Source: Oscillospiraceae bacterium
GTDB lineage: Bacteria > Bacillota > Clostridia > Oscillospirales > Ruminococcaceae
Reading direction: 5' to 3'
Assembly: GCA_017848055.1 (NCBI GenBank)
Contig: JAGALZ010000025.1
Coordinates: 1 to 64,000 of the forward strand
Length of the DNA: 64,000 bases
Below the pieces are notes generated by a model. It did no database searches. It was not told the DNA's origin and saw only the letters and a list, made by a program, of their open reading frames with translations. A program made the translations under genes and the position numbers. Positions 1,210 through 58,810 of the stretch are shown one piece after another (within the stretch, counting starts at the first letter, position 1; the number at the start of each line of letters is the position of its first letter).

Positions 1210-1407
1210 ATGAAGCTTAAGAAAATCGCAAATATTCTGACGATAATTATGATAATAGGTATTGCGGTGTTTGTTCTGGGTGTCATTTTCGCAGATACTG
1301 ATGGGGCACGCTGGCGTATATTCTCGGTCGCTATGCCGATAGTGGGAGTGTCCCTCTGCGGTGCTATCGTACTGTCAGCAATTGATAGTATTAATGCCAA
1401 GAAATAA
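1210..1407 (+). CDS. Small two-helix membrane protein
   Basis: 65 residues, mostly two transmembrane helices (about 8-30 and 38-58) joined by a short polar loop DTDGARW. The start is 4 nt after the acyltransferase stop, whose last codons (AAGGGTGA) provide the ribosome binding site, so the two were cotranscribed. No family is recognised. Position and size suggest an accessory of the upstream membrane enzyme, but that is inference only. Confidence 0.5.
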   Translation: MKLKKIANILTIIMIIGIAVFVLGVIFADTDGARWRIFSVAMPIVGVSLCGAIVLSAIDSINAKK

Positions 1408-1695
1408 CCACATAAGAACAATACCCGTACAGATGTTTTACACGTGTCTATTGAGGAAAACCCTTTTGAAAAAGGGTTGTTCCTCAAACTCCTTTCCTAA
1501 AACTTTTAGTACAATTTCAGCCCCATAGGGTGTACATAACTTAGTGGAGATTTTATTCTCTCTTGGTGTATACCCTATGGGGCTGAAATCATATTGAAAG
1601 TCTTTGTAAGGGGGTACAGGGGATAAACTTTCTTCAGAAAGGTTTCCCCCGATAAATACATATAGAATATCTGTACGAGTGTTGTTCTTATGCGG
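1408..1695. repeat. Palindromic dispersed element, copy A
   Basis: This element lies between convergent genes. A perfect 18-bp inverted repeat (1514-1531 with 1572-1589, core CAGCCCCATAGGGT) sits at its centre. Two side hairpins flank it: one near 1454-1488 built on GAGGAA...TTCCTC and one near 1612-1652 built on GGGGG...CCCCC. The outermost arms 1408-1434 and 1669-1695 match as inverted repeats at 24 of 27 positions. The core recurs at 19047, 42295 and 45979, but the outer arms do not. It encodes no protein. Confidence 0.8.
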
Positions 1696-1700
1696 ATTTC

Positions 1701-3185
1701 TTATGGGTTTGCGGCTTCGCAGAGTTTTTGCCATACCTTGACCATAGCGTAGGTATCAAGGCCGCAGTATGTGAGAAGATGTGAGCGGAACTTTGAAAGC
1801 TCGTCGGGGGACATCTTCGCCATACGCTTGAAGGTGTCGGAAGCCTCAGCACCGTTGTGAACACCTTCGAGGTTATGGTAATCGAGCGACGGGTCGTCTG
1901 GGAAGAGCGCAGGCAGAACGTACTTAATCGAGTATGAGCCTTGCATTGCCCTTGAGTAGTACTGCTTTTTCTGAAAAGGCACCATAAGGTCGCAGATGTT
2001 GTCGTGAATGTTCATAAGATGCTGTGAAAGGTCGGGGTAAAGCTCTGCCAAGCCCTTGATTCTGCCCTTTTCAAAGCCCATATTATAAGCCGTTACGCAT
2101 ACGTTTTGCGGAATATCCTCGCAAAGCTGCTGAGCTAACGCACGGCGAGGGTCAGCACCCGGATAAGCAAGATATTCACGGTGCTTCAGCTCGCCGCCTT
2201 CCTCCTCGATATAGTGAAGGGAATACTGAAATACAATCTGCTCGTACGGGCGGGAGTTGTCGTATAGCGGAATTGCAGGCTGGAATGACTCAAAGTCAAG
2301 GAAGTACAGTGGATAAGAAAGCTGTGAGAGGAACTCTCCGATTGCCTTCTTGTCAATGTGCGCAGCACAGCCTGTAACCTCGTGCTCAACCTGTATCATC
2401 TGATTTGCTGAAACCGCCTTTGTGCCGAGTATGTCTGAAAAGGCAATAAGCCCCTTGTCGTAGCACTTGAGCTTTGTCGAGGACCTTGCCCCCGAAATGT
2501 CAAACACATTTGGCTTTGGCAGACCTCTCGTGCAGTAGCCGAAGAATCCGCAGTTGTATGGCGAAAAGCAGTGTGCTCCGATGGGGTCACAAGGCTCGTC
2601 AGTCTGCTTCATATATTCCTCAAACCGACTGACGTTGCCCTCAACACCGCCGATAAGCTCTGACACCTTGTCGGTTATGTCCTCAATGTGAAAAAGCTCG
2701 TTTAAATCAAGCTCGCCCATTCTCACATACCTGCTGTTTATGTGTACAATGCAGACACATCCTACGTTAAAGCCAAGCTTTGAAAGAACGTAGCATTGAT
2801 ATGTAGCGTCATTAAGATAAATGTCCGTTACAGAAGTTGAGCTCTTAACCTCGTAAATCTCAACATTTCTGTCACCGAGATTTTTGAGTATGTCAACGCT
2901 GCAGAACAGCCCGTCATAAGAAAACGACGCTTCTGCAATTATCCTTGTTCCCGCATCTATAAGCTCCTGAGTCCTGGCAATCATATCAGAAAGATTTCCG
3001 AAGGGCACCTCTGTGAAGTCGCCGAAAAGCCCCATCGCAAGGTCGCCGACCTCGTTTCCTGTTTCCAGAACGGACTCGTTCATAACCGAGCTGTCAAATG
3101 CCTCAGGCCTGTTCTTGTTGAGCCAGAGCATTTTTGGACATTGCAAAGCACTGCAGTATTTTGATTTTGAAAGATAGATTGACAT
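1701..3185 (-). CDS. DUF2779 protein: Cas4-like plus DEDD-like nuclease domains
   Basis: 494 residues. The N-terminal part has a PD-(D/E)XK layout: D98 (in SVDIL) and E112-V-K114. Cysteines C11/C16 and C199, C206, C212 and C218 could hold an iron-sulfur cluster, as in Cas4/AddB-like nucleases. The C-terminal part resembles an RNase H-fold 3'-5' exonuclease, with DFE at 297-299, YNMGFE near 367-372 and YCGLDTYAM near 473-481. This combination is the DUF2779 family, thought to act on DNA or RNA but not biochemically defined to my knowledge. The ATG at 3185 is preceded by AGGGAGGG. It is divergently transcribed from a WYL regulator. A role in repair or defence is inference. Confidence 0.75.
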   Translation of the reverse strand: MSIYLSKSKYCSALQCPKMLWLNKNRPEAFDSSVMNESVLETGNEVGDLAMGLFGDFTEVPFGNLSDMIARTQELIDAGTRIIAEASFSYDGLFCSVDILKNLGDRNVEIYEVKSSTSVTDIYLNDATYQCYVLSKLGFNVGCVCIVHINSRYVRMGELDLNELFHIEDITDKVSELIGGVEGNVSRFEEYMKQTDEPCDPIGAHCFSPYNCGFFGYCTRGLPKPNVFDISGARSSTKLKCYDKGLIAFSDILGTKAVSANQMIQVEHEVTGCAAHIDKKAIGEFLSQLSYPLYFLDFESFQPAIPLYDNSRPYEQIVFQYSLHYIEEEGGELKHREYLAYPGADPRRALAQQLCEDIPQNVCVTAYNMGFEKGRIKGLAELYPDLSQHLMNIHDNICDLMVPFQKKQYYSRAMQGSYSIKYVLPALFPDDPSLDYHNLEGVHNGAEASDTFKRMAKMSPDELSKFRSHLLTYCGLDTYAMVKVWQKLCEAANP

Positions 3186-19046: not shown

Positions 19047-19256
19047 AACCCTCGCCGTAAGGCGCATAGCTACATAGAAGTATATTACACGGATTTGTCC
19101 AGAAGAAAACTTTTGAAAAGTAGGTTTTCCTAAAACTTATTAATTAAAATTTCAGCCCCATTGGGTACACATCAAGAGAGTGATTAGAGGCTCTCAAGTT
19201 TGTGATAGATACCCTATGGGGCTGAAATTATATGACCATCACCTTAAGGCGAGGTT
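19047..19256. repeat. Palindromic dispersed element, copy B (degenerate)
   Basis: Same central arms as the other copies (19149-19166 and 19211-19228, one mismatch), but shorter, without the GGGGG/CCCCC side hairpin. The outer arms AACCCTCGCCGTAAGG (19047-19062) and the complement at 19241-19256 pair with one mismatch and one bulge and are unique to this copy. It reaches the stop codon of the GH5 gene and, read on the minus strand, ends in a T-rich tract. It fills most of the GntR-GH5 gap. Confidence 0.7.
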
Positions 19257-29080: not shown

Positions 29081-29908
29081 ATGAAAAAATGTTTTGTGGC
29101 GTTATTGCTGGCAGGAATAATGACGACGTTACTTGTGGGTTGCAACAATATGGATGAGGAAGACTATACGTTGCTTGTCCCTGCAACATCATCAACATCT
29201 CTTATGTGGTCAGATGCATTATCGAGTATTACATCGCAGACAACAACTGCTGAGAAAGCTACTGAGAATGACGAGAGCTTGGCTCCTTCGTCGACGCCGA
29301 CGGTAACAATTGAAAATGTCGATATAGAAACTGTTAATACCACAACAACTAAGAAATTAACAGAGGCTACCGCTATTACCAAGGAATCTACCACAACCAC
29401 CACAACAACTAAGAACCCGACTACCACAACCAAAAAACAGCTGGCTACGACTACAACCACTACAACAAAGAAGCCGGCTACGACGACTACCACAACCAAG
29501 AAGCAGACGACAACTACCACCCAGACATCAGCAAAAGAGAATACCAAGTGGACAGAGCTTGGCTATACTTATGCAAAAGACGGAAAGATAAAGGTTGTCT
29601 TTAAGGCAAGAGAGTATAATAATCAATTGCAGATGTCTGTAGAGATTCACAATAATTATACCGATACGGTTAATGTATCGGGTAATGTAAATATAATTGA
29701 TACGGACGGATTTGCGGTTCCTCTTAATGGTTATTATTCTATAGGGTTTAATAAGTGGGTCAGCTCGGGTGAAAAGTACCGTATGGATAACGAACCATAT
29801 TCGGTTAATATCGATGGCTTTGAAACTATAAAAGATATAAAAGGGATTGGATTCGATTTGTATATTCACGGTGTTGGCCCGGAGTCATACACAATCACAT
29901 GCAATTAA
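29081..29908 (+). CDS. Thr-rich lipoprotein with one related domain
   Basis: 276 residues from the ATG at 29081, seven bases after GGAG. Signal MKKCFVALLLAGIMTTLLVGC with lipobox VGC. A long linker (about 60-150) of Thr runs broken by KKP/KKQ follows, then a C-terminal domain starting WTELGYTYAKDGKIKVVFKA that is homologous to both domains of the preceding lipoprotein (shared K-x-x-x-x-F/L-(K/R)-A-R-(E/N), N-N-Y-(S/T)-(E/D)). Thr-rich linkers of this kind are typical O-glycosylated or extended spacers in ruminococcal surface proteins. It sits 25 bp after the previous gene, so the two are cotranscribed. A terminator follows at 29959. Confidence 0.65.
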   Translation: MKKCFVALLLAGIMTTLLVGCNNMDEEDYTLLVPATSSTSLMWSDALSSITSQTTTAEKATENDESLAPSSTPTVTIENVDIETVNTTTTKKLTEATAITKESTTTTTTTKNPTTTTKKQLATTTTTTTKKPATTTTTTKKQTTTTTQTSAKENTKWTELGYTYAKDGKIKVVFKAREYNNQLQMSVEIHNNYTDTVNVSGNVNIIDTDGFAVPLNGYYSIGFNKWVSSGEKYRMDNEPYSVNIDGFETIKDIKGIGFDLYIHGVGPESYTITCN

Positions 29909-39914: not shown

Positions 39915-41507
39915 ATGAAAAAAAGAATTCTGGCATTGCTTGTAGCGATGAGTATGATGACCTCGCTTGCGGCATGCGGTGCTATAGACGACGAAAAGTA
40001 TGATGAGTTTATTCCTTTGATTTCAACGGATTCTGACATTAATACAGATTCTCAGACAACTACAGATTCTGCATCCGGGGATGATTCTTCTGTTCCGGAG
40101 CAGACTGAAGACCCTGCTGTTACTACAACGGCAAATTCTGAGGAGCCTTCTTCGTCAGATACGAATGCAACTGATAATTCTTCGCAGACAAATAGTCAGA
40201 GTGAAACTACTACCACAACAACTCAGGGCGAAAATTCGGGCTCTGTTACTACAACACCAGCAAGCGGCTCGTCAACTACAACAACTACTACAACTGCAAA
40301 AAATCCGACTTCTTCTGCAACAACTACTACAACTAAGAAGCCGACTTCTTCTACAACCACAACTACAACTAAAAAGCCGACTTCATCTACAACCACAACT
40401 ACAACCAAGAAGCCGACTTCTTCCACAACTACAACCACCACAGCACACAAGCATTCCTATACATCAAAGATAACAAAGAATGCTACTTGTCTTGTAGCAG
40501 GTGAAAAAACGTATACCTGCTCATGCGGTCACAGCTACACAGAAGGTATCTCCGCAACAGGACACAGCTACACATCCAAGGTTGTGAGCCCGACACCGGA
40601 AGCCCAGGGCTATACACTTTATACTTGCTCAAAGTGTTCGAGCAGCTATAAGGATGATTATACAGCTAAGATAACACTTTCAGCACCATCCTCAATTAGT
40701 TATCCTTCAAGAGTGGTCACGGAAGCGGCTATATCATGGAGCAAGGTAAGCAATGCGGATGGATATATCCTAAGCGTTTCCAATGGTAGCGATGAGAGAA
40801 GCTTTACAGTTCCCGGGACAAATGCATTGACATACACCGTAAAGTCGCTTACACCAGGTACCATGTATTATTTTAAGGTTAAATCGTACAAAACAATTAA
40901 TGGGACAAGATATGAAAGTGATGGCACCAAAACGGGCTCGTGTGCTACTCAACTTGCTGACTTGAAAATAACATCTACAGCCAGCGATTCGACTATGACT
41001 GCTATCACACTTAAATGGAATAAGGTTACAGGTGCTGGCGGATATGAGATTCAGCAGTATAAGAATAGTGCATGGACTACTATAAAAACTATTTCAAGCG
41101 GTTCTACGCTTTCACATACTGTAAGCGGTCTTAATAACGGAACGACATACAAATTCAGAATTCGTGCATTCTCATCAAACAAGTACTCATATAGCCTTTG
41201 GACAGAGAAATCTATTTCTACTCTTCCACCATTCTCTACTATAACGAGTTCTTCATCCACCAGTAACTCAATCACTCTTTCCTGGGCTTCACTTGGGGTT
41301 AAAGCAGATGGGTATGTTGTTGAGCTTTACAAGGGAACGAGCAAATTGAAGACTGTAACATTGACAGGAACAAACACGACAAATTGTACTTTCAATTCGT
41401 TATCATCTAAAACGACATACAAGGTCGTAGTGTATGGATATCGTGATGTAAGCGGCGTTAGATATCAGAAGGGACAGACGGGTACAACAACGCTGACCAC
41501 CAAATAA
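39915..41507 (+). CDS. Large surface lipoprotein with Thr linker, Cys module and FnIII domains
   Basis: 530 residues from the ATG at 39915 (GGGAGG). Signal MKKRILALLVAMSMMTSLAAC with lipobox AAC. The next residues (GAIDDEKYDEF) resemble those after the Cys in the lipoprotein at 29081. A Ser/Thr linker (to about 180) contains four KKPTSS/KNPTSS units in poly-Thr. Then comes a Cys-containing module of about 70 residues (HSYTSKITKNATC, CSCGHSYTEG, CSKCSSSYKDDY), which looks zinc- or disulfide-stabilised, and three fibronectin type III domains (about 265-530). It is likely a surface adhesin or scaffold. It follows the Tad operon but has its own promoter. Confidence 0.8.
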   Translation: MKKRILALLVAMSMMTSLAACGAIDDEKYDEFIPLISTDSDINTDSQTTTDSASGDDSSVPEQTEDPAVTTTANSEEPSSSDTNATDNSSQTNSQSETTTTTTQGENSGSVTTTPASGSSTTTTTTTAKNPTSSATTTTTKKPTSSTTTTTTKKPTSSTTTTTTKKPTSSTTTTTTAHKHSYTSKITKNATCLVAGEKTYTCSCGHSYTEGISATGHSYTSKVVSPTPEAQGYTLYTCSKCSSSYKDDYTAKITLSAPSSISYPSRVVTEAAISWSKVSNADGYILSVSNGSDERSFTVPGTNALTYTVKSLTPGTMYYFKVKSYKTINGTRYESDGTKTGSCATQLADLKITSTASDSTMTAITLKWNKVTGAGGYEIQQYKNSAWTTIKTISSGSTLSHTVSGLNNGTTYKFRIRAFSSNKYSYSLWTEKSISTLPPFSTITSSSSTSNSITLSWASLGVKADGYVVELYKGTSKLKTVTLTGTNTTNCTFNSLSSKTTYKVVVYGYRDVSGVRYQKGQTGTTTLTTK

Positions 41508-41604: not shown

Positions 41605-42288
41605 ATGAAGATAATACTTGTCCGTCACGGACACCCCGACTATGTAAACGACTGTCTTACCCCTTTAGGGCACGAGCAGGCAAAAAGTGCCGCCTTGCGT
41701 CTTAAGGACGAGGGTATTGAAGAAATATTCACCTCTCCCTACGGCAGAGCAATGGAAACCGCACAGCACACCGCAGACCTTATTTCAAAGGATGTCCGTA
41801 TCCTGGATTTCATGCACGAACTGAAGTGGGGAGCAAAGGAAAATACCACAGTTTACGGTGAAGGGCATCCATGGGATACATCACTCTATGCGCTCTCACT
41901 CGGGTATTCTCTTATGGATGAGGAGTGGACGAAAAAAGAGCCTTTCTGCAACAACGTCGTTTTTGATGAGCTGGAGCGTGTGGCGGCCGAGTGCGATAAG
42001 TGGATGGAAACCCTCGGCTATAAAAGAGAAGGTGCAAACTACCGTGTGGTCGGCGACAATACAAACCGCACAATTGCCCTTTACAGTCACGGCGGTTCGT
42101 CGTCCGCTCTTTTGTCACACCTTCTGAATCTGCCGTTTTTCTATCTTTGCAGAGCAATCTGCCCCGACTTTACGGCAATTACTGTGCTCTCGCTTTCAGA
42201 TGAAATGGGTGCAATCACAACTCCGCAGATTGAACTTGCCAATGATTCAAGACACATAAAGGGCGGCAATGCTACCTACGAAATGTAA
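41605..42288 (+). CDS. Histidine phosphatase family protein
   Basis: 227 residues. The phosphoglycerate-mutase-like motif LVRHGHP (4-10) carries the catalytic His in RHG. FTSPYGRAMETAQHTA near 40-55 supplies the second Arg and C-terminal IALYSHGGSSSALL near 153-166 supplies the second catalytic His. It is cytoplasmic. Family members dephosphorylate sugars, phosphoserine or cobalamin intermediates, and the substrate is not evident. GGAGG precedes the ATG. Confidence 0.88.
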   Translation: MKIILVRHGHPDYVNDCLTPLGHEQAKSAALRLKDEGIEEIFTSPYGRAMETAQHTADLISKDVRILDFMHELKWGAKENTTVYGEGHPWDTSLYALSLGYSLMDEEWTKKEPFCNNVVFDELERVAAECDKWMETLGYKREGANYRVVGDNTNRTIALYSHGGSSSALLSHLLNLPFFYLCRAICPDFTAITVLSLSDEMGAITTPQIELANDSRHIKGGNATYEM

Positions 42289-42294
42289 TACATA

Positions 42295-42552
42295 CGTCAG
42301 GAACATTGATGATATTGTGAACTTATATGTGGTTATCGGGGGAAACCTTTCTGAAGAAAGTTTCTCCCCCGAACCCCCTTACAAAGACTTTTGATATGAC
42401 TTCAGCCCCATAGGGTACTCATAAGAGAGAACTAATTTCAATTCTCTGTTTCTGATAGGTACCCTATGGGGCTGAAATTTTACTAAAAGTTTTAGGAAAG
42501 GGTTTTCCTCAACAGCACGTGTAAATCCACTATATTAACAATGTTCCTGACG
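42295..42552. repeat. Palindromic dispersed element, copy C (inverted)
   Basis: Same core as copies A and D but in opposite orientation, with about 34 bp deleted from the GAGGAA hairpin. The central arms are 42399-42416 and 42461-42478. The outer arms CGTCAGGAACATTG (42295-42308) and CAATGTTCCTGACG (42539-42552) are a perfect 14-bp inverted repeat, followed by six T. The right arm lies inside the last codons of the MaoC gene, so coding sequence forms half of the stem. Confidence 0.8.
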
Positions 42553-42981
42553 TTTTTTAACGACAGCTTCGGTGAGGTTTGTCATAACGAGTTCGCCGTG
42601 TTGGTTTGTGACGGAGAGTGACAGTTCGGCGATGCCGTTTCTAGGGCTTCTGTCGACAAGCTTTGAAACGGTCACGGTAGTTGAGAGTACGTCGCCTGCA
42701 AAGACGGGTTTTAGCCACTCGATTTTAGAAGATTTTCCTGCGAGTAGTTCAGGGCCGAAAATATCCTTTTCCAGGTACTTTGCCCAGACTGCTGCAAAGG
42801 ACATAAGTCCGGGTGCAATAAGTCTGCCGAATGGTGTTTTGCTTGCGTATTCCTCGTCGGTGTGCAGTGGGATGTTATCGTATTTCTTCGCAAAGTCAAT
42901 CATCTCGTCCTTGTCAATAACGGCATCATCGAGAGTAAATTCCGTGCCGAGAACTATATCATCAAAGTACATACTTTTCAC
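42535..42981 (-). CDS. MaoC-like dehydratase
   Basis: 148 residues of hotdog fold: MYFDDIVLGTEF start, then the hydratase-2 motif region YDNIPLHTDEEYASKTPFGRLIAPGLM, where Asp and His correspond to the catalytic pair of R-specific enoyl-CoA hydratases. Substrate length is unknown. It is convergent with the phosphatase gene. Its last four codons (QEHC) form one arm of the repeat's outer stem. It is 1 bp from the deformylase-like gene and cotranscribed with it. Confidence 0.85.
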   Translation of the reverse strand: MKSMYFDDIVLGTEFTLDDAVIDKDEMIDFAKKYDNIPLHTDEEYASKTPFGRLIAPGLMSFAAVWAKYLEKDIFGPELLAGKSSKIEWLKPVFAGDVLSTTVTVSKLVDRSPRNGIAELSLSVTNQHGELVMTNLTEAVVKKRQEHC

Positions 42982-45766: not shown

Positions 45767-45976
45767 ATGATAACATATGAGCCGTTTTACAGGACAATAA
45801 AGGATAAGAATATATCTACCTACAAGCTTATAAATTCCTATGGTATCAGCCGAAGCCTTCTCGACAGGCTCAAGCATAACAAGCCCATAAGTACAGTCAC
45901 CCTCAATGACCTTTGCAGAATTCTTGAGTGCAGAGTGGAAGATGTCGCAGTGTATATCCCCGACAAAACCGAATAA
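45767..45976 (+). CDS. Small Cro/CI-type HTH protein (HTH_26)
   Basis: 69 residues, almost all of it an HTH domain: TYKLINSYGISRSLLDRLKHNKPISTVTLNDLCRILECRVEDVAVYI, the pattern of Cro-like HTH_26 repressors. Ribosome binding site GAGGTGAGGGG. It is divergent from the lipoprotein at 44947, and its promoter overlaps that gene's promoter, so it is the natural candidate to bind the shared palindrome. Confidence 0.8.
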   Translation: MITYEPFYRTIKDKNISTYKLINSYGISRSLLDRLKHNKPISTVTLNDLCRILECRVEDVAVYIPDKTE

Positions 45977-45978
45977 AA

Positions 45979-46289
45979 CCACCTGCCGAGAATATAGCAA
46001 GCAGTTTATAAAAGTATTACACGAACCTATTGAGGAAAACCCTTTTGAAAAAGGGTTATTCCTCAAACTCCTTTCCTAAAACTTTTGTAATAAAATTTCA
46101 GCCCCATAGGGTACCTATCATGGTTTCGAGAATATATGTCATTCTCTTGATGTGTACCCTATGGGGCTGAAATCATATTAAAAGTCTTTGTAAGGGGGTC
46201 CGGGGGAGAAACTTTCTTCAGAAAGGTTTCCCCCGATAAATTCGTATAATATACTTTTATAAAGTGTTCGTCATATTCCGGGCGGGTGT
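45979..46289. repeat. Palindromic dispersed element, copy D (most complete)
   Basis: It lies between convergent genes and touches both ends. The centre is a perfect 18-bp inverted repeat (46095-46112/46156-46173). The GAGGAA...TTCCTC and GGGGG...CCCCC side hairpins are intact. The arms extend outward as an almost continuous stem to CACCTGCCGAGAATAT (45980-45995) opposite 46273-46288 (13 of 16 match, one more G-U). T-rich tracts follow on both strands. Outer arm sequence is unique to this copy. Confidence 0.85.
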
Positions 46290-46290
46290 T

Positions 46291-47829
46291 TTATCTTTTT
46301 ACGAAGTATTCCTCGTACCATACGAGGAAGGTATAGATTGTCCAGACCTTTCTCCAGTTGTCGGAGTTGCCGCCGACGTACTCGTTCCAGATTGCCTTGA
46401 TTTCGTCTACATTGAAAAACTCAGCTGCAATATCGCTGTCAAACTTCGCTCTTACATCTGCGTTGTAACGCTCGTCTGCAAGCCATATTCTGATAGGAAC
46501 AATAAATCCGAGCTTCTTGCGGAAAGCGATTTCCTCGGGGAGAACCTTTGCGGCAGCTGTTCTGAAAGCGACCTTGTTCTGCTCCTCGGTAACCTTGTGC
46601 TTTGACGGCATTCTCGATGCAATGTCAAACACACGTCTGTCGGTCAGAGGCATTCTAACCTCAAGACCTGCTGCCTCGCTCATCTTGTCAACGTTGAGGT
46701 AGATATCTCCTTCGAGCCAAATCTGAATATCAACTGCCGACATCTTGGTGAGTGGGTCAAGTCCCTCTGTTTCCTCGTAGATTTTCTTTGCAAGGTTGAT
46801 AGGGAGAACATCCTCGTTGTATGTCTTTAAGATACGCTTCTTTTCATCTTCCTTCATAATGTTGGTGTTGCCGACATAGAAGGTCTTGAGGTTTTCGCCA
46901 TATCTCTCAGCGTTGCGGTACATATTGTAGCCGCCGAAGAATTCGTCCGAACCTTCGCCTGAATAGCAGAGCTTTGTGTGCTTTGCGGTTTCGATACAGC
47001 CGAGTGCGAATGCGATTGCCGAAGCATCTCCGAGCGGCTGTTCCATATTGTACATAACGTAAGGCACGATATCAAAGTAAGCCTCTGGAGTGATTACGCA
47101 TCTGCGGTTTTCTCTGCCGAGAAGGTCAGCAGTTTTCTTAGCAAGCATCGATTCGTCAAAACGTTCGTCGTCATAGCCGCAGGAATCTGTAACCATAGCG
47201 TCGGTCATTGCAAGCACATAGGATGAGTCAACACCGCCCGAAAGGAACGACTCTGCGGTTTCGCCGTCCTCTTTAATCTCGGGTACAATTGACTTTACGG
47301 TTTCGTGGATTTCATCAGCCCACGCTTCGAGTGACTTTTCATTGTCGGGCTTGAAGGTAGGTACAAAGTAGCGGGTTATCTCAATTTTGCCGTCCTTGAA
47401 GGTAAGATAGTGACCCGGCATAAGCTTCATTACACCCTTGAAGAAGGTTTCTTCGCCGCCTACATATGTGAGCGACATATATATCTGAAGAAGGTCACGG
47501 TTAACCTCTTTTTCAAAGCCTTCCTGCGAAATGATATCTCTTATCATTGTGCCGTAAAGAAGCTTGTTATCACGGGTAAGGTAGTAATAAAAAGGCTTTG
47601 TTCCGAAATGGTCGCGCAGGCAGAAAAGCTCGTCAGCGTCGGTGTCGTAGAGTGCAAATGCAAACATACCGTGCATATACTGCGCCATATCCTTGCCCCA
47701 TTTTTCGTATGCCTTTATAAGTATCTGTTCCTCACGCTGTTCTCTTGGAAGGTTATTGTCCACCGAAAGAACAGAGCAAAGCTCCTTATGGTTTCTTATG
47801 TGTCCTCTGTAGGTCTTAAGTTCAATCAT
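46291..47829 (-). CDS. Asparagine synthetase-like protein lacking the glutaminase nucleophile
   Basis: 512 residues from the ATG at 47829 (AGAGGTG upstream). The synthetase half is intact: PP-loop SGGVDSS at 197-203, CYSGEGSDEFFGGY, and the usual C-terminal VRMPLTDRRVFD. The N-terminal amidotransferase domain begins at what is normally residue 75-80 and so lacks Cys2, the RGPD loop and the NGEIYN-type site. Normal AsnB proteins have about 610 residues. The gene may be ammonia-dependent or act on another substrate; the clean promoter and ribosome binding site argue against a recent truncation. Confidence 0.8.
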   Translation of the reverse strand: MIELKTYRGHIRNHKELCSVLSVDNNLPREQREEQILIKAYEKWGKDMAQYMHGMFAFALYDTDADELFCLRDHFGTKPFYYYLTRDNKLLYGTMIRDIISQEGFEKEVNRDLLQIYMSLTYVGGEETFFKGVMKLMPGHYLTFKDGKIEITRYFVPTFKPDNEKSLEAWADEIHETVKSIVPEIKEDGETAESFLSGGVDSSYVLAMTDAMVTDSCGYDDERFDESMLAKKTADLLGRENRRCVITPEAYFDIVPYVMYNMEQPLGDASAIAFALGCIETAKHTKLCYSGEGSDEFFGGYNMYRNAERYGENLKTFYVGNTNIMKEDEKKRILKTYNEDVLPINLAKKIYEETEGLDPLTKMSAVDIQIWLEGDIYLNVDKMSEAAGLEVRMPLTDRRVFDIASRMPSKHKVTEEQNKVAFRTAAAKVLPEEIAFRKKLGFIVPIRIWLADERYNADVRAKFDSDIAAEFFNVDEIKAIWNEYVGGNSDNWRKVWTIYTFLVWYEEYFVKR

Positions 47830-48440: not shown

Positions 48441-48452
48441 TTATAAAAAGTC

Positions 48453-48495
48453 AACAGCTCCCAAACAGAATTTCTGTCTGAGAGCTGTTTTTATA
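48453..48495. terminator. Bidirectional terminator
   Basis: AACAGCTC (48453-48460) pairs with GAGCTGTT (48482-48489), with an inner CAGA/TCTG stem and a T run, between convergent genes. Confidence 0.8.
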
Positions 48496-48503
48496 TGTAA
48501 GTA

Positions 48504-55907: not shown

Positions 55908-56136
55908 ATATGTAAAAAGCAAACGACGGAATTATCCGATAAGTTTTTTAAAGAGAGAAAGCGGTTGGTGTAAGCTTTCATAAACGAATCGGTGGCTACC
56001 CTGAGAAGCTGTGCGGAAAACCGTAACGTAAAGCCTGCGTTAAAGGCTTCAAGTGACTGCAGAAAACCTGCGGTAATTTGGGTGGTACCACGGAGAAGCT
56101 TCGTCCCATATTTCGGGCGGAGCATTTTTATTTTTA
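55908..56136 (+). promoter_or_regulatory. T-box leader, alanine
   Basis: The T-box proper is GGGTGGTACCACGG (56080-56093), whose TGGT pairs with the free 3' end of uncharged tRNA. The terminator stem is GCTTCGTCCC/GGGCGGAGC (56098-56107, 56115-56123) with a T-rich tail to 56136. A GCT triplet followed by A at 55995-55998 in stem I fits an alanine specifier, matching the gene downstream. Uncharged tRNA-Ala would favour the antiterminator and alaS expression. Confidence 0.9.
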
Positions 56137-56164
56137 CGTTAATTTTTCAAAAGGAGATTTATCT

Positions 56165-58810
56165 ATGAAATGGACAGGACTTAACGAGCTCAGAGATTCG
56201 TATCTCAAGTTCTTTGAAAGCAAGGGAGCTTTAAGAAAGAAGAGCTATTCGCTTATCCCTCAGAATGACAACAGCCTTCTGCTTATCGTTGCAGGTATGG
56301 CACCTTTAAAGCCTTACTTCACAGGCCAGGAGGTTCCGCCGAGAACAAGAATGACAACCTGCCAGAAGTGTATCAGAACAGGCGATATCGAAAATGTAGG
56401 TAAGACTGCAAGACACGGTACCTTCTTTGAAATGCTCGGTAACTTCTCGTTCGGCGATTACTTCAAGGAAGAAGCAATCGAGTGGGCTTGGGAGTACTGC
56501 ACAAAGGTACTCGAGCTTCCTGAGGAAAGACTTTTTGTTTCTGTTTACGAGGAAGACGACGAGGCAGAAAAAATCTGGCACGAAAAAATGGGACTTCCGC
56601 TCAATAAGATTTTCAGAATGGGCAAGGAGGATAACTTCTGGGAGGCCGGAACTGACGGCCCTTGCGGACCTTGCTCCGAAATCTATTTCGACAGAGGCGA
56701 GGAGTACGGCTGCGGCAAGCCTGACTGTACAGTAGGCTGTGACTGCGATAGATATATGGAATTCTGGAACCTCGTGTTCACTCAGTTTGAGCGCCACGAG
56801 GACGGTACATATACACCTCTCGCTCAGAAGAATATCGACACAGGTATGGGTCTTGAAAGACTCGCTGCTCTTATGCAGGGCGTGGGCTCAATCTTCGATG
56901 TTGATACTATCAAGGCTATCAGAGACAAGATCTGCGAAATCGCAGGCTGTGAGTACGGCAAGGAATATAAGAAGGACGTTTCAATAAGAGTTATCACAGA
57001 CCATATCAGAAGCGTTACATTCCTCGCTTCCGACGGAGTTTTACCTTCAAACGAGGGCAGAGGCTACGTTATGAGAAGACTCTTAAGACGTGCAGTGCGT
57101 CACGGCAAGCTTCTCGGAATCAACGGTCTTTTCCTTAAGGATATCGTAAAGACTGTAGTTGACAACTCCAAGAGCGAGTACAACGAGCTTGAAGAAAAGT
57201 ACGACTATATCGTAAAGCTTCTTACAACTGAGGAAAAGAACTTCAACGAAACTATCGACAGAGGTCTTAACATCCTCTCAGGCTATATCGAGGAAATGCA
57301 GAAGAACGGTGAAACCGTGCTTGACGGCGTAAAGTGCTTCACACTCAGCGATACCTACGGCTTCCCGATTGACCTTACAAGAGAAATCTTAGAGGAAAAG
57401 GGACTTTCCTGCGACGAGGAAGGCTACGCAAAGGCTATGGACGAGCAGAGAGAAACAGCTCGTAAGGCAAGAGGCGGCTCTAAGTATATGGGCGCTGACG
57501 AAACAGTGTTCCATAAGATTGATAAGAATTTCTCTACAGAGTTTGTAGGCTATGACACTCTCGAGGCTGAAGCTGAAATTGCATTCATCGCAAATGACGA
57601 TGAGCTTCTGGACAATGCAGGTATCGGCGACGAGGTTTATATCGTGTCTTCTAAGACTCCTTTCTACGCTGAAAGCGGCGGACAGGCAGGCGATAAGGGT
57701 ATCATCAGGACTGCAAGCGGTGTTTGCGAGGTAATTGATACCCAGAAGGTAGTAGCAGGTAAGTTTGCCCATAAGGTTAAGGTTACCGAGGGTGCAGTTT
57801 CATGCGGTCAGCTGGCTCAGTTTATCGTTGACAAGGCAAACCGTGAGAGCACAATGAGAAACCACTCATGTGCACACCTTCTCCAGTCTGCACTCAGAAA
57901 GGTTCTCGGCGACCACGTTCACCAGGCAGGTCAGCTTGTTGACGCTGAGAGACTCAGATTCGACTTCTCTCACTTTGAGGGCGTAACACCACAGCAGCTT
58001 TCCGAAATTGAGGCTATCGTAAATGGCTACATTCTCGCAGCTTACGATATCAAGGTTGAGGAAATGGCTATCGACGAGGCTAAGAAGCTCGGAGCTATGG
58101 CTCTGTTCTCCGAAAAGTACGGCGAAACCGTAAGAGTTGTTACAATGGGCGACGCTTCAGTTGAATTCTGCGGCGGTACTCACCTTGACAATACATCCAA
58201 GGCAGGCCTCTTTAAGATTGTTTCCGAAAGCTCTGTAGCTTCCGGTGTAAGACGTATCGAGGCTGTAACAGGTGCAGGAGTTCTCGCACTTATCAAGGAG
58301 CAGGCTGACCTTATCTCAGCTTGTGCTTCAACCCTCAAAATCGGCAATACCGCAGAGCTTGCAAACAGATGTGCAGGCGTTATGGCTGAAATCAAGGGCC
58401 TTGAGAAGGAGAGAGATTCTCTGCAGTCTGAGATTTCCAATATGAAGCTCAAGTCACTGCTTGATAACGTAACCGAGGTAAACGGCGTTAATGTAATCAC
58501 CGCTAAGCTTGACGGAGTAAAGCCTGATATGCTCAGAAAGATGTGCGACGAAATCAAGGCTGACAAGGCTGATACAATCGCAGTTTTAGCAGGTATAGAC
58601 GGCGGCAAGGCTAACCTTGCCTGTGCAGCAGGTAAGGACGCAGTTGCAAAGGGTGCTCACGCCGGTAAGATTGTAGGAAAGATTGCCGCAATCACCGGCG
58701 GTAAGGGCGGCGGACGTCCTGACAGCGCTATGGCTGGCGTAGCTGATATTGCAAAGCTCGATGAGGCACTTTCTCAGGCTACCGAGGTTGTAAAAGAATT
58801 TGTAAAGTAA
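56165..58810 (+). CDS. alaS: Alanyl-tRNA synthetase
   Basis: 881 residues from the ATG at 56165 (AAAGGAG upstream, just after the T-box terminator). Order: aminoacylation domain with the class II motifs (FFESKGALRKKSYSLIP; RPRTRMTTCQKCIRTGD-type motif 2), the tRNA-recognition region, the editing domain with HxxxH in NHSCAHLL and CGGTHL, and a C-terminal C-Ala domain ending with the GGKGGGRPDSAMAG loop. Full length. It attaches Ala to tRNA-Ala and removes mischarged Ser/Gly. First gene of a five-gene unit. Confidence 0.97.
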   Translation: MKWTGLNELRDSYLKFFESKGALRKKSYSLIPQNDNSLLLIVAGMAPLKPYFTGQEVPPRTRMTTCQKCIRTGDIENVGKTARHGTFFEMLGNFSFGDYFKEEAIEWAWEYCTKVLELPEERLFVSVYEEDDEAEKIWHEKMGLPLNKIFRMGKEDNFWEAGTDGPCGPCSEIYFDRGEEYGCGKPDCTVGCDCDRYMEFWNLVFTQFERHEDGTYTPLAQKNIDTGMGLERLAALMQGVGSIFDVDTIKAIRDKICEIAGCEYGKEYKKDVSIRVITDHIRSVTFLASDGVLPSNEGRGYVMRRLLRRAVRHGKLLGINGLFLKDIVKTVVDNSKSEYNELEEKYDYIVKLLTTEEKNFNETIDRGLNILSGYIEEMQKNGETVLDGVKCFTLSDTYGFPIDLTREILEEKGLSCDEEGYAKAMDEQRETARKARGGSKYMGADETVFHKIDKNFSTEFVGYDTLEAEAEIAFIANDDELLDNAGIGDEVYIVSSKTPFYAESGGQAGDKGIIRTASGVCEVIDTQKVVAGKFAHKVKVTEGAVSCGQLAQFIVDKANRESTMRNHSCAHLLQSALRKVLGDHVHQAGQLVDAERLRFDFSHFEGVTPQQLSEIEAIVNGYILAAYDIKVEEMAIDEAKKLGAMALFSEKYGETVRVVTMGDASVEFCGGTHLDNTSKAGLFKIVSESSVASGVRRIEAVTGAGVLALIKEQADLISACASTLKIGNTAELANRCAGVMAEIKGLEKERDSLQSEISNMKLKSLLDNVTEVNGVNVITAKLDGVKPDMLRKMCDEIKADKADTIAVLAGIDGGKANLACAAGKDAVAKGAHAGKIVGKIAAITGGKGGGRPDSAMAGVADIAKLDEALSQATEVVKEFVK

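Follow-up and report, generated by a model that had tools for sequence, protein, structure and literature searches.

The stretch of DNA analysed here (the window, 64,000 nt) lies on contig C21 of a 1.94-Mb Ruminococcus MAG (G000) and contains four copies of a repeat, A to D, all of which were confirmed as members of one family (Table 1). Copy C is located between a histidine phosphatase family gene and a MaoC-like gene that converge on it, with the last codons of the MaoC gene and its TAA stop (42535-42537, minus strand) falling inside the right arm of the repeat, an overlap already pointed out in the first-pass annotation. The T tracts reported there behind the arms of copies C and D are also present, as T6 in C and as a T tract within the 3' arm of D. 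The fold of copy C (MFE -117 kcal/mol, z = -12, 0/200 shuffles) is closed by a 15-bp outer stem (CGTCAGGAACATTG.../...CAATGTTCCTGACG), after which comes T6, and copy D folds like copy C, with its outer stem closed. Elsewhere in the window, a T-box leader (RF00230, 98.7 bits) is found at 55913-56111 upstream of the 56078-58810 ORF, and two ORFs carry 36-nt coding-type direct repeats (29409-29516 and 40276-40455) that are apparently Thr-rich.

Table 1 Repeat copies, their parts and associated features in the window.
Feature	Position	Strand	Remark
Copy A	1400-1702		host arms included
Copy A host terminator 5' arm AGAAATAACCACA	1400..1412	+	
Copy A element proper	1413..1690	-	TAAG at both ends
Copy A host terminator 3' arm TGCGGATTTCTT	1691..1702	+	
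Copy B	19047-19256		host arms included
Copy B host 5' arm AACCCTCGCCG	19047..19057	+	pairs with GGCGAGGTT
Copy B degenerate element (TAAGG..CCTTA)	19058..19246	+	Y side lost
Copy B host 3' arm GGCGAGGTT	19248..19256	+	
Histidine phosphatase family gene	41605..42288	+	PF00300, E=1.5e-19; convergent with MaoC
Copy C	42294-42558		host arms and T tract included
Copy C host 5' arm ACG	42294..42296	+	by alignment to family ends; ambiguous for C
Copy C element proper	42297..42550	+	border by alignment to family ends
Copy C Y hairpin (CGGGGGAAACCTTTC..CCCCCG)	42338..42372	+	
Copy C central hairpin (CTTCAGCCCCATAGGGTA..TACCCTATGGGGCTGAAA)	42400..42477	+	
MaoC-like gene	42535..42981	-	PF01575, E=1.1e-13
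Copy C host 3' arm CGT + T6 tract	42551..42558	+	terminator of the 41605-42288 gene
Copy D	45975-46293		host arms included
Copy D host terminator 5' arm AAAACCACCTGCCGAGAA	45975..45992	+	
Copy D element proper	45993..46275	-	fold z = -13
Copy D host terminator 3' arm TTCCGGGCGGGTGTTTTA	46276..46293	+	with T tract
Ordinary terminator AACAGCTCCCAAACAGAATTTCTGTCTGAGAGCTGTTTTT, site empty in G000	48450..48499	+	filled in the RGIG1923 (G007) ortholog (L061); coordinates approximate

The element is about 250-290 bp long and has a cloverleaf layout with modules of fixed order and orientation: an end arm of ~38 nt starting with TAAG, the Y hairpin (CGGGGGAAACCTTTCTGAAGAAAGTTTCTCCCCCG), the linker AACCCCCTTACAAAGACTTTTAATATGA, a central hairpin (TTTCAGCCCCATAGGGTA...TACCCTATGGGGCTGAAA, variable loop), the linker TTTTATTACAAAAGTTTTAGGAAAGGAGTTT, the X hairpin (GAGGAATAACCCTTTTTCAAAAGGGTTTTCCTC) and a second end arm finishing with CTTA. 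As RNA, it is predicted to form a four-way junction with the outer stem as its closing helix. Across an alignment of 63 copies, in which copy C has lost ~30 nt corresponding to the first half of X, the Y hairpin is nearly invariant. Identity between paralogs in G000 is 93% for the Y/X modules, 79% for the central hairpin and 58% for the 38-nt arms. Rfam searches at gathering and relaxed thresholds returned no known RNA family over the element.

In G000, at least 40 distinct copies were identified by DNA search and ~45 by exact core pattern, together marking at least 50 places. The same core is found in at least five further MAGs, namely Ruminococcus sp. RGIG4025 (G041), SIG537, SIG539 and RGIG9144 as well as Oscillospiraceae RGIG1923 (G007), which shares its genus with G000. 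All compared genomes are MAGs and hence incomplete. Other members of the genus and one other genus have a sister family, which shares the Y and X hairpins but differs in its central palindrome, and four contigs of RGIG4025 (C131, C116, C89, C47) carry a second subfamily with common Y and X modules and an apparently different central part. The element has no coding capacity, its cores of ~200-270 bp leaving no room for a transposase gene. It is thus short, free of ORFs, bounded by inverted ends of ~38 nt and present in at least 50 copies, as is typical of MITEs. Among the part of the arm and core matches that was scored, those examined were element copies or nested insertions, and none had a gene between its ends. 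The X or Y hairpin of some copies (L090, L096, L098, L099, L114, L163, L164) harbours another hairpin repeat, ~57 bp long (ACTCCCCACAGTGTGGGGAGATGTCNGAAGNACAGAGGGGAC...), a case of hairpin elements inserted within hairpin elements.

The outer stem consists of two layers. The inner layer of ~38 nt on each side belongs to the element, whose ends show weak conservation from copy to copy yet pair within each copy, while the outermost ~8-15 nt represent the stem of a host terminator and are unrelated between copies. The initial description of the arms as unrelated between copies and complementary within each therefore holds for the outermost letters, with pairing far beyond chance, but the next ~38 nt proved to be diverged versions of one element end. 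Conversely, the possibility raised there that the arms belong to conserved element ends applies to these ~38 nt and not to the outermost 8-15 nt. In a set of 84 fully flanked copies drawn from five genomes, left and right arms of the same copy resemble each other more closely than mixed arms do, up to ~50 nt from the core: 26 of the 84 exceed the 99th percentile of mixed pairs in the arm window 36-71 nt out, compared with at most 1/84 beyond 50 nt. Over the next 16 nt outside the element border, within-copy complementarity averages 6.4 against 4.1 for mixed arms (0/2000 permutations reach 6.4), and another 25 nt outward none of it is left (0/88 copies).

The border between the layers is sharpest in RGIG4025, the genome whose copies look youngest. 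There, the ~38-nt ends are 87% identical from copy to copy and switch abruptly at TAAG to site-specific stems of 7-12 bp bounded by A and T tracts, which indicates that the element owns ~38 nt per arm and the host the rest. When the host flanks are joined with a single TA assumed at the junction, a terminator with TA in its loop is rebuilt at 9/9 of these sites (for example AAAAAGGACTTCCGATAATGGAAGTCCTTTTT). Such joined-flank hairpins have a mean energy of -9.9 kcal/mol, as opposed to -5.2 for mixed pairs (copy A, -9.5 kcal/mol). For copies whose TAAG end is intact, 28 hairpins are strong, and every one of them leaves the TA unpaired in its apical loop. The suggestion that copies share a target structure rather than a target sequence is thereby borne out. 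An A-run of at least 4 toward the element is present in 60/88 copies and in 12/88 of the wrong-strand control. Clean TA on both borders is seen in only 49/88 copies, presumably owing to the age of many of them.

For copy C itself the border is ambiguous. Because TCAGGAACATT of this copy aligns with the family end TAAGGACAATA, most of its perfect 15-bp outer stem may be element end. On the basis of this alignment, its arm is probably for the most part a diverged element end, with only ACG and the T tract clearly outside. Alternatively, the 15-nt perfect stem at 42295-42309 would be the host terminator.

Empty sites were sought by joining the flanks of filled sites and searching them in relatives. 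For copy L006 (G000:C46), the orthologous locus L204 in G007:C45 is empty, with 82% identity over both flanks. L204 is a complete terminator hairpin, ACCGCCCATACCA-ATA-TGGTATGAGCGGT+TTT, classed as terminator-like by a scan (13 pairs and a T tail). At the filled site both arms are kept, with the element between CATACCA and TGATATG (empty ...GAATAAAAATACCGCCCATACCAATATGGTATGAGCGGTTTTCTTTATA..., filled ...GAATAAAAACCCACCCATACCA|TAAGATGAG [element] CCACCTTA|TGATATGGGTGGCTTTTTTATA...), so that in this one cross-species comparison at most the loop was lost. The empty loop, ATA, is compatible with both TA duplication and loop replacement, and insertion may proceed by either. Nine further pairs (six sites filled in G000 but empty in G007, three the other way round) have an ordinary terminator between the same genes, though its letters differ from those of the filled site. 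The proposal that an empty site should show both arms as a terminator hairpin thus came true at the letter level at L204, whereas the other nine sites have a terminator of other sequence. Arms conserved at the letter level are accordingly seen in only 1/10 pairs, as genes at this evolutionary distance change more slowly than terminator sequences do. In most of the other pairs the terminator of the partner is missing from the filled genome, with the element directly next to stop codons; at such sites the native stem must therefore have been replaced or have been lost later. Site L026 is filled in both genomes. Three RGIG4025 sites have terminators of other sequence in their G071 orthologs, which were too diverged for a letter-level comparison and were dropped. 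Copy C was also dropped as an empty-site case, as the MaoC end in RGIG1923 adjoins only a doubtful core-like fragment. At another site (L039, compared with its empty RGIG1923 ortholog L237), the upstream gene appears 3'-truncated by the element, which provides the stop codon.

Flanking frames could be read for 71 copies, of which 47 are found between convergent, 24 between tandem and none between divergent genes, compared with 9 convergent, 44 tandem and 9 divergent arrangements for adjacent genes of the window scored by the same crude method. The orientation of the element relative to transcription is even (13/11).

We consider it roughly 80% probable that the repeat is a non-autonomous, MITE-like element that transposes into the apical loop of intrinsic terminators. 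Structure-directed insertion into terminator loops, as first proposed from copies A to D, is well supported by the L204 empty site, the loop TA in 28/28 hairpins and the 47/24/0 gene context. Mechanistically, an element without ORF, with TAAG...CTTA ends and a cloverleaf fold, would be moved by a trans-acting enzyme into the apical loop, the target being recognized as a hairpin and not by its sequence, and would be joined at or beside the loop TA. The host stem would remain on both sides, which would explain why the outermost arms, being host DNA, differ from site to site and yet pair. The T tract would remain as well, so the enlarged hairpin should still terminate, and termination activity may be retained with the element in place. 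Later, element ends and host stem would drift but remain paired, and recombination between copies would exchange or flip the conserved core. We tentatively extend this to a more specific scenario, which we hold to be somewhat short of an even chance: the element recognizes a cruciform or single-stranded hairpin, inserts at its apex and takes over as the terminator of the gene, its own ends replacing the host stem and drifting together while exchange keeps the core uniform.

If true, terminators would be a renewable, structure-defined niche for a Ruminococcaceae-wide family of cloverleaf DNA with interchangeable central hairpins, and the repeat would be a clear natural case of mobile DNA choosing DNA or RNA structure over sequence. 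Loop targeting would explain how tens of copies (~fifty or more) are carried without broken genes. Terminators are seen to turn over between related species, with repeats supplying replacements. The many sites with empty and filled alleles offer a ready system for studying how an enzyme finds hairpin loops, and the same system would suit asking whether a terminator still works with a cloverleaf of ~250 nt nested in it.

Copies clearly recombine after insertion. Orthologous filled sites L038/L052 in G000 and G007 are 97% identical in both arms and 99% in the central hairpin, whereas the orthologs L024/L056 retain 97% identity in the arms but only 80% in the central hairpin, which matches a paralog at 99%. 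In the orthologs L008/L046 of the same two genomes, the core is inverted relative to its flanks with the arms in place. Swapped or flipped cores between locus-bound arms imply that cores are exchanged or inverted by recombination between copies, and such recombination would explain uniform cores and divergent arms better than new insertion alone. This lends some substance to gene conversion, which had been suggested as an alternative source of the paired ends, except that it acts on the core. Could the repeat then spread altogether by homologous recombination or conversion of intergenic terminator regions, replacing terminators without transposing? Both this core exchange and the 9/10 empty partners that show a different terminator replaced, often with the element abutting stop codons, would fit. 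We nevertheless regard it as unlikely, as the flanks lack the homology from which conversion at a new site could begin, and in young copies unrelated stems enclose precise TAAG/CTTA borders; conversion accounts for the turnover of existing copies, not for new sites.

A second alternative is foldback copying, in which the element inserts anywhere and intrastrand template switching (quasi-palindrome correction) then turns one flank into a complementary copy of the other. Indeed, the arms of one copy share copy-specific changes, with left-right identity in G000 of 65% within copies against 55% for mixed copies. Among outer-arm mismatches, transversion types are halved within copies while G.U and A.C types both remain, as expected if the arms began as copies and then drifted. 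The count of 187 G.U versus 153 A.C mismatches in the outer arms is too weak a bias for wobble pairing to serve as proof of RNA-level selection, an argument we rejected. Foldback copying may contribute to the inner, element-owned layer, but as the origin of the outer stem we find it improbable: the L204 empty site has both arms before insertion, outer complementarity in RGIG4025 amounts to an A-tract/stem/T-tract terminator at nine sites, and in other genomes such sites hold a terminator and no element. Finally, an immobile structured RNA or giant bidirectional terminator selected gene by gene, in keeping with the strong fold, the pairing maintained through drift and the restriction to gene 3' ends, is very hard to reconcile with Y/X modules that share 93% identity across tens of unrelated loci and with sister species that differ in occupied and empty sites.

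Several candidates for the mobilizing enzyme were considered. IS630-type DDE_3 transposases (PF13358) were found in 0/6 element-bearing genomes, all of them incomplete MAGs. RAYT-like Y1 genes are present in 4/6 genomes, with none in G000, and have no element parts near them, so RAYT was rejected. SIG537 and SIG539, which have RAYT-like transposase genes (L253, L255, L258), also commonly carry GTAG-type REP-like hairpins (GTAGGGGACGATG...CATCGTCCC, GTAGGGGCGGAT...; for example at L090:4150-4720 and L096:7100-7600). An IS found at contig ends (ends TGCACAGGTCCAG...) was rejected too, since several element copies carry it within their C/G tract, making the element its target. Five G000 contigs (C25, C27, C37, C38, C39) start with this IS inside the C/G tract (L064, L065, L067, L069, L081); it has the end TGCACAGGTCCAGTAAAAACGGACA, encodes MSKRYG.LKQYEKE... 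and in four insertions sits at the same base. The palindromic repeat thus serves as its landing site.

Terminator-seeking elements related in kind are already known, but this ~280-base repeat of gut Ruminococcus is not among them, and a search of the open-access literature found no terminator-loop MITE. Like MITEs derived from IS630/Tc1-mariner transposons (Correia and RUP type), the Ruminococcus element is short with inverted-repeat ends and TA borders; it differs in that no IS630-type transposase was found in the six host genomes and in that TA duplication is only putative. IS630/Tc1-mariner-derived MITEs are not known to target loops. REP/BIME palindromes act as landing sites for IS1397, ISKpn1 and IS621, a hairpin-linked form of mobility (PMC1525189). 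The sequence of these palindromes is conserved, however, while the Ruminococcus target stems are unrelated in sequence, and the proximity of repeat and Y1 gene seen in REP/RAYT systems does not extend to the Ruminococcus copies, which are not flanked by RAYT genes. The pneumococcal repeats SPRITE, RUP and BOX are likewise small, gene-less and structured, and SPRITE sits at gene 3' ends and is terminator-like (PMC3049150). SPRITE is a single hairpin with a U-rich tail, for which that study found no empty site and did not describe a nested host stem (PMC3049150). Group IIC (bacterial-C) introns target intrinsic terminators and spare genes, but they are retroelements with a ribozyme and usually an encoded protein, and insert just after the terminator (PMC8919778). 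The Ruminococcus element sits in the loop and not 3' of the stem, and has no Rfam match at the gathering threshold. The best precedent is IS1272/TnSha1 of the IS1182 family in Staphylococcus, which targets terminator hairpins by their structure in both orientations, shows no sequence consensus and ends up flanked on either side by complementary host sequence (PMC4923244). It is autonomous, encodes a transposase and makes blunt stem cuts with partial deletion of the hairpin and no target duplication (PMC4923244). The Ruminococcus element shares its insertion into hairpins without a sequence consensus, but is a gene-less cloverleaf that has TA at its borders and, in the L006/L204 comparison, keeps both arms.
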